Part shown: one piece after another, positions 2 to 29,173 of the stretch
Layout of the letters: every line of letters begins with the position of its first letter
Numbering within the stretch: the first letter of the stretch is position 1
DNA from: Williamwhitmania sp.
GTDB lineage: Bacteria; Bacteroidota; Bacteroidia; Bacteroidales; Williamwhitmaniaceae
Direction of reading: 5' to 3'
DNA length: 37,819 nt
NCBI GenBank assembly: GCA_035529935.1
Contig: DATKVT010000131.1
Span: forward strand, 1 to 37,819
The notes under the pieces: model-generated
Database searches by the model: none
What the model saw: the letters and a program-made list of their open reading frames with translations, nothing else
What the model was told of the DNA's origin: nothing
Program-made: the position numbers and the translations under genes

Positions 2-388
<387 letters not shown>

Positions 389-16717: not shown

Positions 16718-18379
16718 TTAGATATCCACGGTACTGTACAGAAATCGCTTTATGCTCTTCTTGGGCGTTTTTTCAAACTCCTCAGGATAGAGTTTCGTTT
16801 TCGCCAACTGCATGAAGGCAGGCAGCTGTTCGTTGATATTTTTTCGATTTTCCTCCATAATAATCTCGAGGTCGTTGGTGTTGACACCGGCCTCGTCAGC
16901 AGCCTCATAGTCGGGATAGATGAGAGCTACCAGACGGCCGTTGCGCTCTACCACCAACGATTCTTGAATAAATGGCATGTTGTTCAACCTTGCCTCAATT
17001 TCTTCTGGATAGATGTTCTGTCCAGTTGAGCCAAGAATCATGCTTTTGCTTCGTCCTTTGATGAAGATGAATCCATTTGTATCTACAACTCCAAGGTCTC
17101 CGGTGTGAAGCCATCCTTCGGGTGAAATTGTAGCACGAGTGGCCTCTTCGTTTTTATAGTAGCCAAGCATAACATTCTCCCCTTTCACCAGAATTTCGCC
17201 AACCACATTCTGTGGATCAGGGGAATCAATCATAATTTCGAGGGTGGGAAGGATTTTTCCACAAGAGCCGACTGGGATTTCTTTCCATGAAGCATACGAA
17301 ATCAGCGGCCCGCACTCGGTCATACCAAACCCTACGGTATACTGGAATTTAATTTTTTTTAAAAATTCTTCCACTTCAAGATTAAGTGGTGCTCCGCCAA
17401 TAATTACCTCAATGAAGCTTCCACCGAAAACGTCGGTGAGTTTTTTGTTTACCTGCTGAAAAATTTTTTTATCGAGAAGAGGAACATTCATAAGCATCTT
17501 CATGGGGCGCTTATTGAGAGTCGGCAGAATCTGCTTTTTGTAAATTTTCTCGATTATTAGTGGCACTGTAAGAACAAGTCTCGGTTTTATGTGCTCAAAA
17601 GCTTGCATAATTAGCTTTGGAGCAGGCGTTTTTGTTAGGAAGTTAATATGGCATCCAACAGAGAATGGCCACAAAAATTCAAAAGCGCATCCATAGGCAT
17701 GCGCCAATGGTAAAAAGGAAACTATTCTATCGCCAGGACGCAAGGGTATGGTGGTGTGGCCAAAGAGCATGTTTGCCGCCAAGCTGTTTAGTGGGAGCAT
17801 TACACCCTTAGAGAAGCCGGTTGTTCCTGATGTATAGCTTATTACACCAAGATTACTGTTTGGGATTTCTGCAAAATTTAGATCTTTGGGCTGGAGCTCG
17901 GCAAAAGCATCGCTATCGCTTTCAATCAAATGATTTGTCTGATCGGCTGCTGCCTGATTGTGGTGGGTAAGTAGGCCAAAGTTGGTAAGCGAAAAAAATG
18001 CGCGAACACTCCTCATTGATGACTCATCAATATTTTCCCAGATATTATCGCTGGAAAACATGAGAACCGAGTCGGAGTGGTTAACAATGTGGTGAATGTC
18101 GGCTGGCGCAAAATCGGGTAGGATAGGAACAATAACCGCTCCGTATGTAACAACGGATAGATATGCTATCGCCCAATTGCTGCTATTTCGACCTATAAGA
18201 GCAACCTTATCACCTTCGCAAAGCCCCCATATTTTATAGTATTCATGCAGCAGTGCAATTTTTTTGGCGACATCGGCGTAGGTATATGTCTTGTCGAGGT
18301 AGTCAGAAAAGGCAGGCCTATTCCAATTTTGCTTCAGGCTTTTTTCTACGTATTCCTTAATAAAGTTTTCGTTAATCAT
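16718..18379 (-). CDS. AMP-forming long-chain acyl-CoA ligase, copy 2
   Basis: A 553-residue ANL-superfamily ligase that activates a carboxylic acid to an acyl-AMP and then a thioester. Motifs: P-loop YTSGTTGFSKGV (A3), GFGMTECGP (A5), GWLHTGDLG (A7), FIKGRSKSMILGSTGQNIYPEEIE (A8 hinge), and a C-terminal TPKKSIKRFLY with the likely catalytic Lys. Similarity is greatest to long-chain fatty acid ligases (FadD-like). It is shorter than eukaryotic-type ACSLs. It follows its paralogue by 32 bases on the same strand, so both are probably one transcript. Substrate not deducible; a lipid A, lipid or fatty-acid salvage role is possible. Confidence 0.88.
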   Translation of the reverse strand: MINENFIKEYVEKSLKQNWNRPAFSDYLDKTYTYADVAKKIALLHEYYKIWGLCEGDKVALIGRNSSNWAIAYLSVVTYGAVIVPILPDFAPADIHHIVNHSDSVLMFSSDNIWENIDESSMRSVRAFFSLTNFGLLTHHNQAAADQTNHLIESDSDAFAELQPKDLNFAEIPNSNLGVISYTSGTTGFSKGVMLPLNSLAANMLFGHTTIPLRPGDRIVSFLPLAHAYGCAFEFLWPFSVGCHINFLTKTPAPKLIMQAFEHIKPRLVLTVPLIIEKIYKKQILPTLNKRPMKMLMNVPLLDKKIFQQVNKKLTDVFGGSFIEVIIGGAPLNLEVEEFLKKIKFQYTVGFGMTECGPLISYASWKEIPVGSCGKILPTLEIMIDSPDPQNVVGEILVKGENVMLGYYKNEEATRATISPEGWLHTGDLGVVDTNGFIFIKGRSKSMILGSTGQNIYPEEIEARLNNMPFIQESLVVERNGRLVALIYPDYEAADEAGVNTNDLEIIMEENRKNINEQLPAFMQLAKTKLYPEEFEKTPKKSIKRFLYSTVDI

Positions 18380-18411
18380 AGGGAACGCGTTTTTTGGTTA
18401 GAATCAATATG

Positions 18412-20073
18412 CTAAGCGCTAGGCGCTTGGTAAAGAAACCGCTTTATGCTGCGCTTGGGCGTTTTTTCAAATTCTTCGGGATAGAGTCTCACTTCACTGA
18501 TTTGACAATAAGCAGGAAGCATTTTGTTGACATCCATCCGGTTTTCTTCCATTTTCTTTTGGATATCATCGGTTCGTATTTTTTGCTTATCGGCCAATTC
18601 GTAGTCGGGATAAACTAGGGCGATTAATTTTCCAGAGTGTTCAACAACAAGCGATTCCTGAACAAAGGGCATGTTGTTAATTCTTGCTTCAATTTCTTCG
18701 GGGTATATGTTTTGGCCCGAAGCACCAAGTATCATGTTCTTGCTTCGACCTTTAATAAACAGAAACCCATCCTTGTCCAACAGGCCAAGGTCTCCGGTAT
18801 GCATCCATCCATCAGGGGTAAAGGCCGCTTCGGTAGCTTCTTCGTTGCGGTAGTAGCCAAGCATAACGTTGTCGCCCCTGACAAGAATCTCCCCAACGAT
18901 ATTTTCAGGATCGTCAGAGTCAATTTTTATTTGCATCCTGGGTGCCGCTTTTCCGGTGGAGAAGAGTTTTGTCTCGTTCCAGGGGGCATACGCAACAATG
19001 GGGCCACACTCAGTCATACCATATCCAACCGTAAAACGAAACCCAATTTTTTTCAGAAAACTTTCCACCTCTGGGTTCAGCGCTGCTCCACCAATTACCA
19101 CCTCGTGAAATTCGCCACCAAAAATAGAGGTCAGCTTCTCGTTAATTTTTTTACAAATGCGGCGATCGACGATGGGGAGCTTAAGCAGTAATTTCACCGA
19201 TGGTTTATTTATTGCATCCAGAATATTTTTTCGATAGATTTTCTCAATAATTAGAGGAACGGACAGAACCACTTTGGGCTTTAACTCTGCAAATGCTTCC
19301 AAAATAATTTTAGGAGAGGGTGTGCGGGTAAGAAAGTTTATGTGGCATCCCCTGGTGATGGGGTATAAAAATTCGAAAGCACCACCATATGCATGGGCCA
19401 GTGGAAGTATACTGACCATGTTTCCGCCTGGTTCTAGGGGTAACACATCCTCGGCAAATAGTAGGTTTGAATTTAATGAGCGGTAAGGTAGCATGACACC
19501 TTTGGAGAAGCCTGATGTCCCTGAAGTATAGTTAATTATAGCCAATTCTTCCGGAGCATCTCTATGGTAAGTAATGCATTCTGGGGTAAATCCAGTGGCG
19601 TACTTTTCCTTAAATAACCGCGGTAGGTCACCATGAATTTGGCGAACTGAAAAGGGTGTGTTCTCATGAAGAATGTCGAAGGCAGTCAGTGAAATTATGC
19701 ACTTAACTCCAGGTATCTTTGTTTCGTTGAGATTGTCCCAAATTTGGTCGCCTGTAAACAGCACCATCGCTTCCGAATGGTTTACGATATGGTGAATATT
19801 GTCGGGCTTAAAGTCTTGTAAAATAGGAACAACGATGGCACCATAGGTGGTAATTGATAGAAATGCCACGGCCCAGTTGGAAGAATTTCTTCCTACAAGC
19901 GCAATTTTATCCCCTTTTCGAATCCCTGTTTTTTCAAATATGATATGGATTTTAGCAATTTTTCGAGCAATGTCCTTGTAGTAATAGGTTGTTCCTTTAT
20001 AATCGCTAAGTGCAGGCAGTTCCCAGTTTTGACGAATACTCTTTTCAATATGGGCAACAAAGCTTTTTTCCAT
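18412..20073 (-). CDS. AMP-forming long-chain acyl-CoA ligase, copy 1
   Basis: Exactly the same length as its downstream neighbour (553 residues) and clearly paralogous along the whole chain: both share HHIVNHS, LPLAHAYG, RPxLVLTVPLIIEKIY-like and NIYPEEIEARxNNMPFxQESLVVE segments. Motifs: YTSGTSGFSKGV (A3; Ser for the second Thr), GYGMTECGP (A5), GWMHTGDLG (A7), FIKGRSKNMILGASGQNIYPEEIE (A8), TPKRSIKRFLY (C-terminal Lys). It should activate fatty or related acids with ATP and CoA. It leads the two-gene operon, with a good promoter upstream at 20150-20179. The pair looks like an old tandem duplication followed by divergence, since many substitutions separate the copies. Confidence 0.88.
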   Translation of the reverse strand: MEKSFVAHIEKSIRQNWELPALSDYKGTTYYYKDIARKIAKIHIIFEKTGIRKGDKIALVGRNSSNWAVAFLSITTYGAIVVPILQDFKPDNIHHIVNHSEAMVLFTGDQIWDNLNETKIPGVKCIISLTAFDILHENTPFSVRQIHGDLPRLFKEKYATGFTPECITYHRDAPEELAIINYTSGTSGFSKGVMLPYRSLNSNLLFAEDVLPLEPGGNMVSILPLAHAYGGAFEFLYPITRGCHINFLTRTPSPKIILEAFAELKPKVVLSVPLIIEKIYRKNILDAINKPSVKLLLKLPIVDRRICKKINEKLTSIFGGEFHEVVIGGAALNPEVESFLKKIGFRFTVGYGMTECGPIVAYAPWNETKLFSTGKAAPRMQIKIDSDDPENIVGEILVRGDNVMLGYYRNEEATEAAFTPDGWMHTGDLGLLDKDGFLFIKGRSKNMILGASGQNIYPEEIEARINNMPFVQESLVVEHSGKLIALVYPDYELADKQKIRTDDIQKKMEENRMDVNKMLPAYCQISEVRLYPEEFEKTPKRSIKRFLYQAPSA

Positions 20074-25339: not shown

Positions 25340-26572
25340 CTACTTGATTACGATTTTACGAGTAATGCTTCTTCCGTCGAAAACAAGTTGCAGAAAGTAA
25401 TTACCTGTTGGTTTGTCGAGCTTGTAACTTTTTTTGAATGAGTCCGAGACACTCTGGGTATCATTCACGAGAATTTTCCCCTCTTCCCCAGCAATTTTAA
25501 CGGTTAACTTACCGCTTGCCGCTGGTGTAAATGCAAGGGTTAAGTTGTTTGTCGATTCCGACGATTCCAATCCAACAGAGAGATTGCCATCGGGGATTTT
25601 TTTATCACTCTTTTCCTTTTTAAATCCACCTTTTTCAAGCATGGCAATCTCTTCGTTGGAAGGATCGGATACAATTAAGGTCGATTCCATTTTTTTCATC
25701 ACTATTTTTTTCACCTTTTTCTTATAGGAATTTTGGTTAACCATAACAACGTATGATTTGCTCTTTGGTCCGACAGCATTGGTAGAGTCTTTGTCGGAGA
25801 TAATGATTTTAATCTGCTTACCCCCCTTTGAATTAACAATTATTTTTTCGGTTTTACAGTTGCCTGGCTTACCCGATTTTGTTATGACGGCTCGAGAAAG
25901 CACCATTACATGCTTTTTACCTTTGGGGTTGAAAAAGTAGCCGTAATGTCCATCTTTTACTGGTTTTCCCGTTGCTGCATCAATCCATTCCTCCTTGCCC
26001 TTGGGTTGCAAATACACCTTTTGTTCGGAAGAATCTCCACGAGTAATTCGGTAAACCTTTAATCCTGAATACTCTCCCTTCTGGGGTAATTTCCCTTCAA
26101 CTTCTAGTTTTTTAAGCATTTCTTGCATCTCTTTGGGGTTGGATGAATCAAACTGTTCAACTTCGATCTGTTGTTTGTGCGGACGACCAACGGTATCTTC
26201 TTCCATAAGGAAGTCCGAATCGTCCGAAAAGAACTGCATTTCAGGAAGGGTTATTTGGTCGTTAAGGCTATCTAGGTTGACCCACATCCCGGCCATAGCC
26301 CTATTTATCTCTTGGGAAATGGAGTCGGAGTTGAAGTAAAAGTTGTGGAGCGATTTTTTTATCACTCGCTCTAAGCTGTCACCGTTTGGCATGGTTCTTA
26401 AGTCCAAGACAATGTTATTATCCCAAGGCGAAATGATAATGGTGTCGCTGTCGCTATTCCAAGTAGCGCTTTTGTGCGGTTGATCTTGCGATACCGCTTG
26501 GGTGGAGGCTGCAAAAAGGGAAATAGCTGTAAGCACCGCCACTTTTGTCGTTTTTACAATAGCTGTTTTCAT
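25340..26572 (-). CDS. Exported protein with T9SS-type C-terminal tail
   Basis: A 410-residue secreted protein. N-terminal signal (MKTAIVKTTKVAVLTAISLF...AVSQ). The middle is polar, rich in Ser, Asp and Lys, without a domain I recognise; it includes SGLKVYRITRGDSSEQKVYL and a Lys-rich stretch (KKKVKKIVMKKMES). The last ~75 residues (NLTLAFTPAASGKLTVKIAGEEG...YKLDKPTGNYFLQLVFDGRSITRKIVIK) fit a Por-secretion (type A) sorting domain: ...G.Y.L.V..G.....KIVIK. If correct, it is exported by T9SS and anchored at the surface. It is divergent from the RprX/RprY-like system, 134 bases apart, which suggests that system may control it. Function unknown. Confidence 0.75.
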   Translation of the reverse strand: MKTAIVKTTKVAVLTAISLFAASTQAVSQDQPHKSATWNSDSDTIIISPWDNNIVLDLRTMPNGDSLERVIKKSLHNFYFNSDSISQEINRAMAGMWVNLDSLNDQITLPEMQFFSDDSDFLMEEDTVGRPHKQQIEVEQFDSSNPKEMQEMLKKLEVEGKLPQKGEYSGLKVYRITRGDSSEQKVYLQPKGKEEWIDAATGKPVKDGHYGYFFNPKGKKHVMVLSRAVITKSGKPGNCKTEKIIVNSKGGKQIKIIISDKDSTNAVGPKSKSYVVMVNQNSYKKKVKKIVMKKMESTLIVSDPSNEEIAMLEKGGFKKEKSDKKIPDGNLSVGLESSESTNNLTLAFTPAASGKLTVKIAGEEGKILVNDTQSVSDSFKKSYKLDKPTGNYFLQLVFDGRSITRKIVIK

Positions 26573-26599
26573 AGTAGTTGTATAGTTTGATAATTGTTA

Positions 26600-26607
26600 C
26601 AAAACTA
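26600..26607 (-). promoter_or_regulatory. -7 box for the T9SS-tail gene
   Basis: On the minus strand TAGTTTTG, an exact TAnnTTTG match. The predicted start near 26595 gives a leader of about 23 bases. No clear -33 element. Confidence 0.5.
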
Positions 26608-26694
26608 CCAATGCGCTGATGGATTGAGTGTTAATGGTCGGTTAATAAGAGCTAACGAAAAGTTAATGTTGATGCAATGCGTTTTCTCTTTTCC

Positions 26695-26702
26695 TACCTT
26701 TG
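26695..26702 (+). promoter_or_regulatory. -7 box at the kinase start codon
   Basis: TACCTTTG matches TAnnTTTG exactly, but lies only 4 bases before the apparent ATG at 26707, so the transcript would begin at or next to the start codon. A TTG at 26669-26671 gives a 23-base spacer. A chance match cannot be ruled out. Confidence 0.35.
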
Positions 26703-26706
26703 GGGT

Positions 26707-28473
26707 ATGAACAAACGAAGAATAACGCTGATATTTATTTTAGTTGGCCTTTCGCTTGCGGGAATAATTGCGATTCAAGTCTTTTGGATTCGAAATGCCT
26801 TGCAGGTGTAGGAGGCTCAGCTCGATGCATCGGTAAATGAGGCGCTCAGCTCTCTGGTTCGTAAGCTGGAAAAGCGAAAGGTTGTGCTCTTGGCAAGTGA
26901 GTTGGATAAAGATAGCCTTGTTGCTCCAGCATTTCAAACTCCCAAAATTCGGCACAAGGGGCATGGTAAACAGATTCGGGAAGAGAGCGAAATTGTTTAT
27001 ACCGGTCCCGATAAGCCAGTTACATTATCGCAAAAATCCATAAAGGTCAGGAGCAAGGGAAAAGGGAAATCCTCGGTATATTTCTTCTCCGACTCTGTTT
27101 TGGCGCCGGAGAGTATGCAGGTGAAATCTACGGTTGAGCGAATCAATGTAGACTCTATAGAGGCGGTAATTGCGGAAGCGATTCACAAGTCGACAAATAG
27201 CCTTAACGCAACTATTGCCAACAACCACTTTAAGATGGAGTGGATCGTGAATGAGTTGGGTAAGAATGGTAGTCGGGTTGTGACACATACCATAAATAGC
27301 CAGAGTGATGATTCCATTACTGGGCGGGCGCAATGGCTGGAGCTGGTTCGCAATGCCTATAAAAATAAGTTAAACATCATGCGGCAAATTGCTGTTGATG
27401 CCGATGCATCTAAGCTGCCGCTTGAAAAACGAGTCGACTTTAAGGGGCTCGAAAAGATGGTGGATGAGGAGCTCACTGCAAAAGGAGTATCTCCAGCAGC
27501 AAAGATTTGCGTTACCAGTGGACCTACCTCCCGAATGGTTTTTTCCTCTAAGGGTTATGATAGCCTTTATGTTGGTCACATTTATAAAACGGCACTTTTC
27601 CCCGAGAACATTATACCGCTTACCGATACGCTGCACGTTTATCTTCCCCTTAGGCGGAGGCAGATATACTCATCGGCTTTTGTACCAGGTGTGGCATCAC
27701 TGGTGTTTACCTTAATTATGGTTATTACTTTTTACCTTTCGTTGAGGACAATTGTGAGGCAGAAGAAGTTGGCTGATATGAAAGCCGATTTCATTAACAA
27801 CATGACACACGAGCTAAAAACACCCATTGCCACAATTCGACTGGCCGTGGATTCGATAGAAAACACGAAGACGATTAGCAATCCCGAAAACATAAAGTAC
27901 TTCACTGCGGCAATCCGCGATGAGAACTTTAGAATGAATAGGATGGTTGAACAGGTGCTACAGGCTGCCCGCTTGGAGCGTAAAGAGTTACGTCTTGTTT
28001 TCACTGAAATAAATTTTGGTGCTTTGGTGGATGCGGTGGTTGCTAAAATGCAAATTATGGCAAAAGAACGAGGTGGATTTATTCGTTTTGAGCCCGCTTT
28101 GGGTGAGTTATATATCCATGGCGATCATGCACACTTGGAGAGCATGGTCACGAACCTCATCGACAATGCTATAAAGTACTCATCCGGTGTTCCGCAAGTA
28201 ACTGTATTTGTAGGTTTGAGCCTTGGAGATGTGGTGCTAACTGTTGAGGACAAGGGAATTGGCATGAGCCGGGATGAGCAGCGGAGAGTCTTTGAGAAAT
28301 TTTACCGAGTGCCGCATGGCAATGTCCACAATGTAAAGGGATTTGGTTTGGGGTTGAGCTACGTTAAGGAGGTGGTTGAGCTGCACGGGGGAGTTGTAAA
28401 GCTAAAAAGTGAGCAAGGAAAAGGATCTTCCTTTTCTGTTTTTATTCCCGAAAGAAAGGCTAACAATGAATAG
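26707..28473 (+). pseudogene. RprX-like sensor histidine kinase interrupted by an in-frame TAG
   Basis: The frame from ATG 26707 would encode 588 positions, broken by TAG at 26809-26811 (codon 35). Before it: MNKRRITLIFILVGLSLAGI, TM1 (~6-28). After it the frame continues with QLDASVNEALSSLVRKLEKR, which fits the periplasmic sensor domain typical of Bacteroidota kinases. Then come TM2 (~325-347), HisKA with H368 in NMTHELKTPIATIRLAVDS, and HATPase with N box NLIDNAIKY, DKGIGM and FGLGLSYVKEVVELHGG. Without TAG read-through, an internal start gives a kinase lacking TM1. CAG to TAG would be a one-base change. The 3' end overlaps the response regulator by 8 bases (ATGAATAG), so the pair were built as a unit. 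Sequencing error is the main alternative. Confidence 0.85.
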
Positions 28474-29173
28474 GAGTGCAAAACTATTATTGGTTGAGGA
28501 TGATGTAAACTTTGGCGCAGTGCTAAAAGCTTACCTTCAAATGAACGACTTCACGGTAACCCTCATCTCCGATGGATCTTCGGCAAAGGCTCAGTATAAG
28601 GTGGGTGCACACGACCTCTGCATTCTTGATGTTATGCTACCCGGATTGGACGGATTTACTCTAGCAAAGCACATACGAATGGTCGATCCCGATGTGTCGT
28701 TCATTTTTCTTACTGCGAAATCCATGAAGGAGGACGTGGTGGCGGGCTATGGTTTAGGTGCCGACGATTACATTACAAAACCATTTGATTCAGAGTTGTT
28801 GCTTCTCAAAATTCAAGCTATTCTGCGGCGGTCTAATGTTGGACAGATCCTACACCCGGCAATTTTGCAGGAGATTAGGTTGGGTCGGTTTACCCTCGCC
28901 ACCGACACCAGAACACTAAGGATTGATAGTGTAGTACACCGACTTTCACCAAGGGAATTTGATCTTTTGCTTTTGCTGAACGAGCATCGGAATCTTGTGC
29001 TCGAGCGGGAAGAGACTTTGCGCCAGATTTGGGGTGACTTTTCTTACTTTACAGCACGAAGCATGGACGTATACATTGCAAGACTGCGGAAATATCTGGC
29101 CGATGATCCTTCCATCGTTATTGAAAATATTCACGGAACAGGTTTCATACTAAGGGTTTCCGATTCTGATTGA
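28466..29173 (+). CDS. OmpR/PhoB-family response regulator, RprY-like
   Basis: A 235-residue regulator. Receiver domain: acidic pair E11/D12 (LLVEDDVNFG), phospho-acceptor D55 in CILDVMLPG, T83 in FLTAKS, K105 in DYITKPFDS. C-terminal winged helix (residues ~135-233) with LSPREFDLLLLLNEHRNLVLEREETLRQIWG and the recognition helix segment ARSMDVYIARLRKYLADDPSI, then IENIHGTGFIL. The start at 28466 lies inside the kinase stop (ATGAATAG), a typical coupled arrangement; an upstream in-frame alternative at 28409 would add 19 unrelated residues and is rejected. It should be phosphorylated by the kinase encoded just upstream, if that kinase is active. It looks intact. Confidence 0.93.
   Translation: MNRSAKLLLVEDDVNFGAVLKAYLQMNDFTVTLISDGSSAKAQYKVGAHDLCILDVMLPGLDGFTLAKHIRMVDPDVSFIFLTAKSMKEDVVAGYGLGADDYITKPFDSELLLLKIQAILRRSNVGQILHPAILQEIRLGRFTLATDTRTLRIDSVVHRLSPREFDLLLLLNEHRNLVLEREETLRQIWGDFSYFTARSMDVYIARLRKYLADDPSIVIENIHGTGFILRVSDSD

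Follow-up and report, generated by a model that had tools for sequence, protein, structure and literature searches.

The window, the whole 37,819-nucleotide stretch analyzed here, corresponds to contig C131 of a draft genome of Williamwhitmania sp. that comprises 4.0 Mb in 233 contigs and contains some contamination. As shown in Table 1, the gene for an RprX-like sensor kinase is followed on the same strand by a response regulator gene and is preceded, 134 bases from its ATG, by a divergent secreted-protein gene. In the assembled sequence, the kinase frame extends from the ATG at 26707 to a TAG at 28471-28473, and codon 35 (26809-26811) is a further TAG. This single TAG separates the first transmembrane segment (TM1) from the sensor domain; the two-gene operon is otherwise intact, as are its operator, its promoter, and the divergent gene.

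Table 1. Features of the kinase-regulator locus in the window
Feature	Position	Strand	Basis
Secreted-protein gene, 410 aa; signal-peptide-like start, T9SS type A sorting tail	25340..26572	-	TIGR04183, 25.7 bits vs. cut-off of 23
Four direct GTTAA repeats (starts 0, 11, 21, 32; steps 11, 10, 11), probable operator	26630..26666	+	19/20 positions match
TAnnTTTG -7 promoter box (TACCTTTG), 4 bases before ATG	26695..26702	+	Spacing in relatives
Kinase codons 1-34, start codon and TM1, 5' of the stop	26707..26808	+	Homologous N terminus in 94/94 full-length relatives; hydropathy peak
In-frame TAG, codon 35	26809..26811	+	Sense codons and no stop in the relatives' column
Kinase remainder: sensor region, TM2 (~residues 323-350), HisKA, HATPase_c; TAG end	26812..28473	+	Frame, domain search, hydropathy
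OmpR/PhoB-type response regulator (RprY-like), intact	28466..29173	+	Domain search; 8-base overlap with kinase end

We compared the locus with that of the only congener (G001), in which the flanks are collinear, with the C69 peptidase gene (74% identical) on one side and the DnaG gene (81% identical) on the opposite side. The three-gene module (25340-29173) is absent from the congener, and the flanking genes lie ~310 bases apart (L210, 9533-9840). Because the whole module is missing at a collinear locus, it is dispensable in the genus; its presence in one genome and absence from the other could reflect either a gain in the former or a loss in the latter. Elsewhere in the window (16718-20073), two adjacent paralogous genes of 553 aa lie in tandem, as they also do in the congener.

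The kinase frame and its relatives

Beyond the in-frame TAG, the kinase frame is free of stops for 553 codons, and the chance of such a run at this base composition was computed to be ~6e-16. The domain search revealed HisKA (E 8e-13) and HATPase_c (E 5e-27), with the catalytic His and the N, G1, F, and G2 motifs that mark a HisKA-type sensor kinase, and all of the columns that are invariant across the family are kept (H368, N487, D515, G517, G519, G545, G547, and G549). Hydrophobicity is strongest in two stretches, residues 5-28 and residues 323-350. The sequence-only reading had described a frame split by the TAG, with TM1 before it, coherent sensor, TM2, HisKA, and HATPase segments after it, and no other stop over 550 codons, and the assembled sequence, the hydropathy profile, and the domain matches bear out this description. 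Under the standard code, the two TM helices do not occur in one polypeptide, the TAG parting TM1 from the rest; the first in-frame start 3' of it is a GTG at 26884, 24 codons on, whose product would lack TM1.

We aligned the window frame, with an X standing for the stop, to the stop-to-stop frames of 94 full-length relatives of the kinase. The TM1 segment 5' of the stop aligned in 94/94 relatives, and the residue at the stop column was Lys in 35, Arg in 25, Gln in 20, Glu in 5, and another residue in the few others, with a stop in 0/94. The change had been read from the letters alone as CAG to TAG. A one-base change is indeed sufficient, but CAG is not the only route, since relatives have AAG, CAG, GAG, TCG, and TTG at this column and all of these differ from TAG by a single base; the ancestral codon may have been any of them. 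The kinase gene is missing from the nearest genus mate, and the next relatives are ~35-45% identical. Among the matches listed from ~200 genomes of the order, whose alignments mostly fell short of TM1, there were no internal stops in kinase-family members, and the junction around the TAG was not found in viral contigs. The stop lies inside the true frame and is not shared by the relatives, as in a nonsense pseudogene.

Other matches to the HATPase domain with apparent internal stops were also checked. Three were normal terminal stops, and one, near the end of contig C44 (L202, ~270-640), was the decayed HATPase remnant of another kinase, with several stops, some upstream and one an in-frame TAG.

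Regulator, operator, and family assignment

The regulator gene lies directly 3' of the kinase gene in 106/109 related loci, and in the window it is intact, as had been noted earlier. A GTTAA array with at least 17/20 matches was found at 61/94 related kinase genes, the window gene included, and shuffled sequences never gave more than 16 matches. The array is positioned at -77 from the kinase ATG in the window and at -76 or -77 in most array-bearing relatives. Direct repeats in tandem, spaced by roughly one helical turn, are characteristic of OmpR/PhoB-type regulators. With this spacing, and because the RprY protein of P. gingivalis binds the promoter of its own gene (PMC3646045), the array is most naturally read as a site of autoregulation, and it is a probable operator for the regulator.

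Between this array and the ATG lies a match to the Bacteroides consensus for the -7 box, TAnnTTTG (PMC7366714). The gap of 4 bases from box to ATG recurs in 48 of the 61 operator-bearing loci, the window included. So short a gap suggests that the kinase transcript is likely leaderless or nearly leaderless; in Bacteroides, mRNAs with leaders shorter than 10 nt are rare, and two of those listed encode sensor kinases (PMC7366714). No earlier description of a four-box GTTAA operator with a TAnnTTTG box was found in the literature that we consulted.

The conserved promoter box and GTTAA repeat before the ATG confirm the gene start and place the TAG inside the true gene. The sequence-only reading had held that relatives in which the gene starts after 26811 would speak against an interrupted kinase; instead, the upstream TM1 is present in 94/94. 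A late start, with the TM1 codons belonging to an unrelated short frame, could use the in-frame GTG at 26884, but the homologous in-frame TM1 of every relative and the promoter and operator spacing, which fits the ATG at 26707, rule it out and leave it a probability close to nil.

A divergent frame is the upstream neighbor in 48/89 related loci, at most of them ~120-170 bases away and usually with a signal-peptide-like start. For the secreted-protein gene of the window itself (25340-26572), no sequence relative was found among the order relatives searched, nor was it found in viral contigs. This gene is a possible target or partner of the two-component pair.

The designation RprX-like, given to the kinase from the letters alone, holds at the family level; the kinase is not, however, the genome's own RprX but belongs to a second pair. 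On the RprY model (NCBIfam cut-off of 370 bits), the window regulator scored 251.6, below the equivalog cut-off, and the regulator of a second pair, on contig C45 of the same genome (G000), scored 339.6; the likely RprY orthologues of the genus themselves reach only ~340. The better fits to the model were this C45 pair and one on contig C25 of the congener, and their kinases fall outside the window clade. That clade (support 0.97) has 67 members, of which 60 carry the operator, and excludes L204 and L205, so that in the kinase tree the window kinase does not group with the RprX orthologue of the genus. The lower RprY score and the position of the kinase outside the grouping of the RprXY orthologues indicate that the window pair is an accessory RprX-like paralogue. 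By these scores and tree positions, the intact RprXY orthologue of the genome is likely the pair on contig C45.

Possible readings of the in-frame TAG

We asked whether TAG is read as sense in this genome, through pyrrolysine or an alternative code. The sequence-only reading had proposed a search for a suppressor tRNA with a CUA anticodon. The tRNA survey yielded 58 matches in the genome, to all but one of which ARAGORN gave an anticodon, and CUA was not found among the called tRNAs. For PylS, there was one weak model match, of 19.8 bits vs. a cut-off of 178, and similar weak matches occurred in most control genomes. Release factor 1 is present, TAG terminates 12/26 other window genes as well as the kinase gene itself, and internal stops were found in 0/118 response-regulator domains (genome and congener) and 0/40 ABC domains. 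The open frame is the one observation that favors recoding; against it, neither a CUA tRNA, nor loss or competition of release factor 1, nor avoidance of TAG was seen. Recoding of TAG in the genome is therefore very unlikely, and release factor 1, the tRNAs, and stop usage together rule it out, with almost no probability left to it.

The survey also contained a tRNA-like element on contig C114 (L161, ~58-146, minus strand; 33.5 bits). It is aberrant, with an extra hairpin, and has no ARAGORN call or definable anticodon.

We examined the kinase for signs of decay. A first test, in which 9/76 conserved positions differed, as many as in only 2/94 others, gave an apparent signal that vanished after weighting and correction for divergence. 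In the sequence-weighted comparison, the kinase deviates at 8/74 conserved positions, where ~6.2 would be expected of a member with its degree of divergence (z 1.4); its conserved positions thus do not appear clearly eroded, and the response regulator shows no excess of changed conserved positions (z -1.2). A stop could arise in the kinase frame by 202 single-base routes, and because none of them has produced a second stop, neutral divergence after the break has an upper bound of ~0.05 substitutions per site. The kinase gene, if dead, died recently. This absence of decay would be equally expected under sequencing error or readthrough.

Under an assembly or sequencing error, the organism would have a sense codon at this site and its kinase would be functional, consistent with the functional appearance of the remaining gene, the operator, and the regulator and with a draft of 233 contigs and some contamination. 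However, the TAG site lies in mid-contig and coincides with neither a homopolymer nor a long repeat. A substitution error that yields an in-frame stop is rare per gene, whereas bacteria commonly carry true nonsense alleles. We consider such an error unlikely.

Alternatively, occasional UAG readthrough or a downstream restart might yield enough full-length or truncated kinase. That the downstream frame is not clearly eroded agrees with such leaky expression, as does the finding that in-frame stops with apparent readthrough are widespread in prokaryotes (PMC7918605). On the other side, release factor 1 is present and a suppressor tRNA was not found, the RNA around and after the stop is no more structured than shuffles (z 1.2 and 1.8, the weaker direction) and gives no indication of a stimulatory stem, a restart at the first available codon would omit TM1, and the stop is absent from all other species examined. 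Leaky expression is in our judgment quite improbable. There is only a slim chance of an amber-throttled two-component system, in which low readthrough would set the amount of kinase by termination efficiency and the regulator would be made fully.

Probable loss of a spare sensor and its parallels

The probable reading is that the accessory RprX-like sensor kinase recently acquired a nonsense mutation, either inactivating or polymorphic among strains, and that this is an ordinary case of a spare sensor being lost. When intact, the system would detect an envelope signal via the region between TM1 and TM2, and the kinase would phosphorylate the regulator; through the GTTAA array, the regulator would act on its own operon and probably also on the divergent secreted gene. 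With the TAG in place, translation would stop after a 34-residue TM1 peptide. A product restarted downstream, at the GTG or beyond it, would lack TM1 and have a misplaced sensor region, so that input sensing would be lost. The same transcript could still give rise to the regulator, which would then operate with no sensor of its own, and the intact likely RprXY orthologue on contig C45 may reduce the cost of the loss.

Similar losses are known from P. gingivalis. The sensor kinase of HaeS-HaeR (PGN_0752-0753 of ATCC 33277) is destroyed in one strain, in which the regulator gene is intact (PMC3764172), and RprX has been lost from P. gingivalis, which retains RprY (PMC6032018). These precedents make the finding ordinary in kind. 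The window resembles HaeS-HaeR in having a broken kinase and an intact regulator; unlike the 2.5-kb deletion in that system, which was proven by strain comparison, the window has a single stop codon in one genome. The window pair belongs to the same broad kinase-regulator family as RprX-RprY of B. fragilis and the orphan RprY of P. gingivalis, but it is a paralogue. Single stops in otherwise open, constrained prokaryotic frames that are common to two or more species have also been described (PMC7918605); the window kinase likewise has a single stop in an otherwise open frame, but its stop is not shared with any relative examined.

If the stop is real, the locus would be another two-component system that is losing its sensor first, caught before further damage, in a paralogue that the genus can do without. 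A likely leaderless kinase gene, preceded at constant spacing by the four-box GTTAA operator and accompanied by a divergent secreted gene, forms a recurrent regulated module of Bacteroidota. This module is the more novel result and may matter more than the broken sensor, as it provides a candidate regulator site that is now directly testable.
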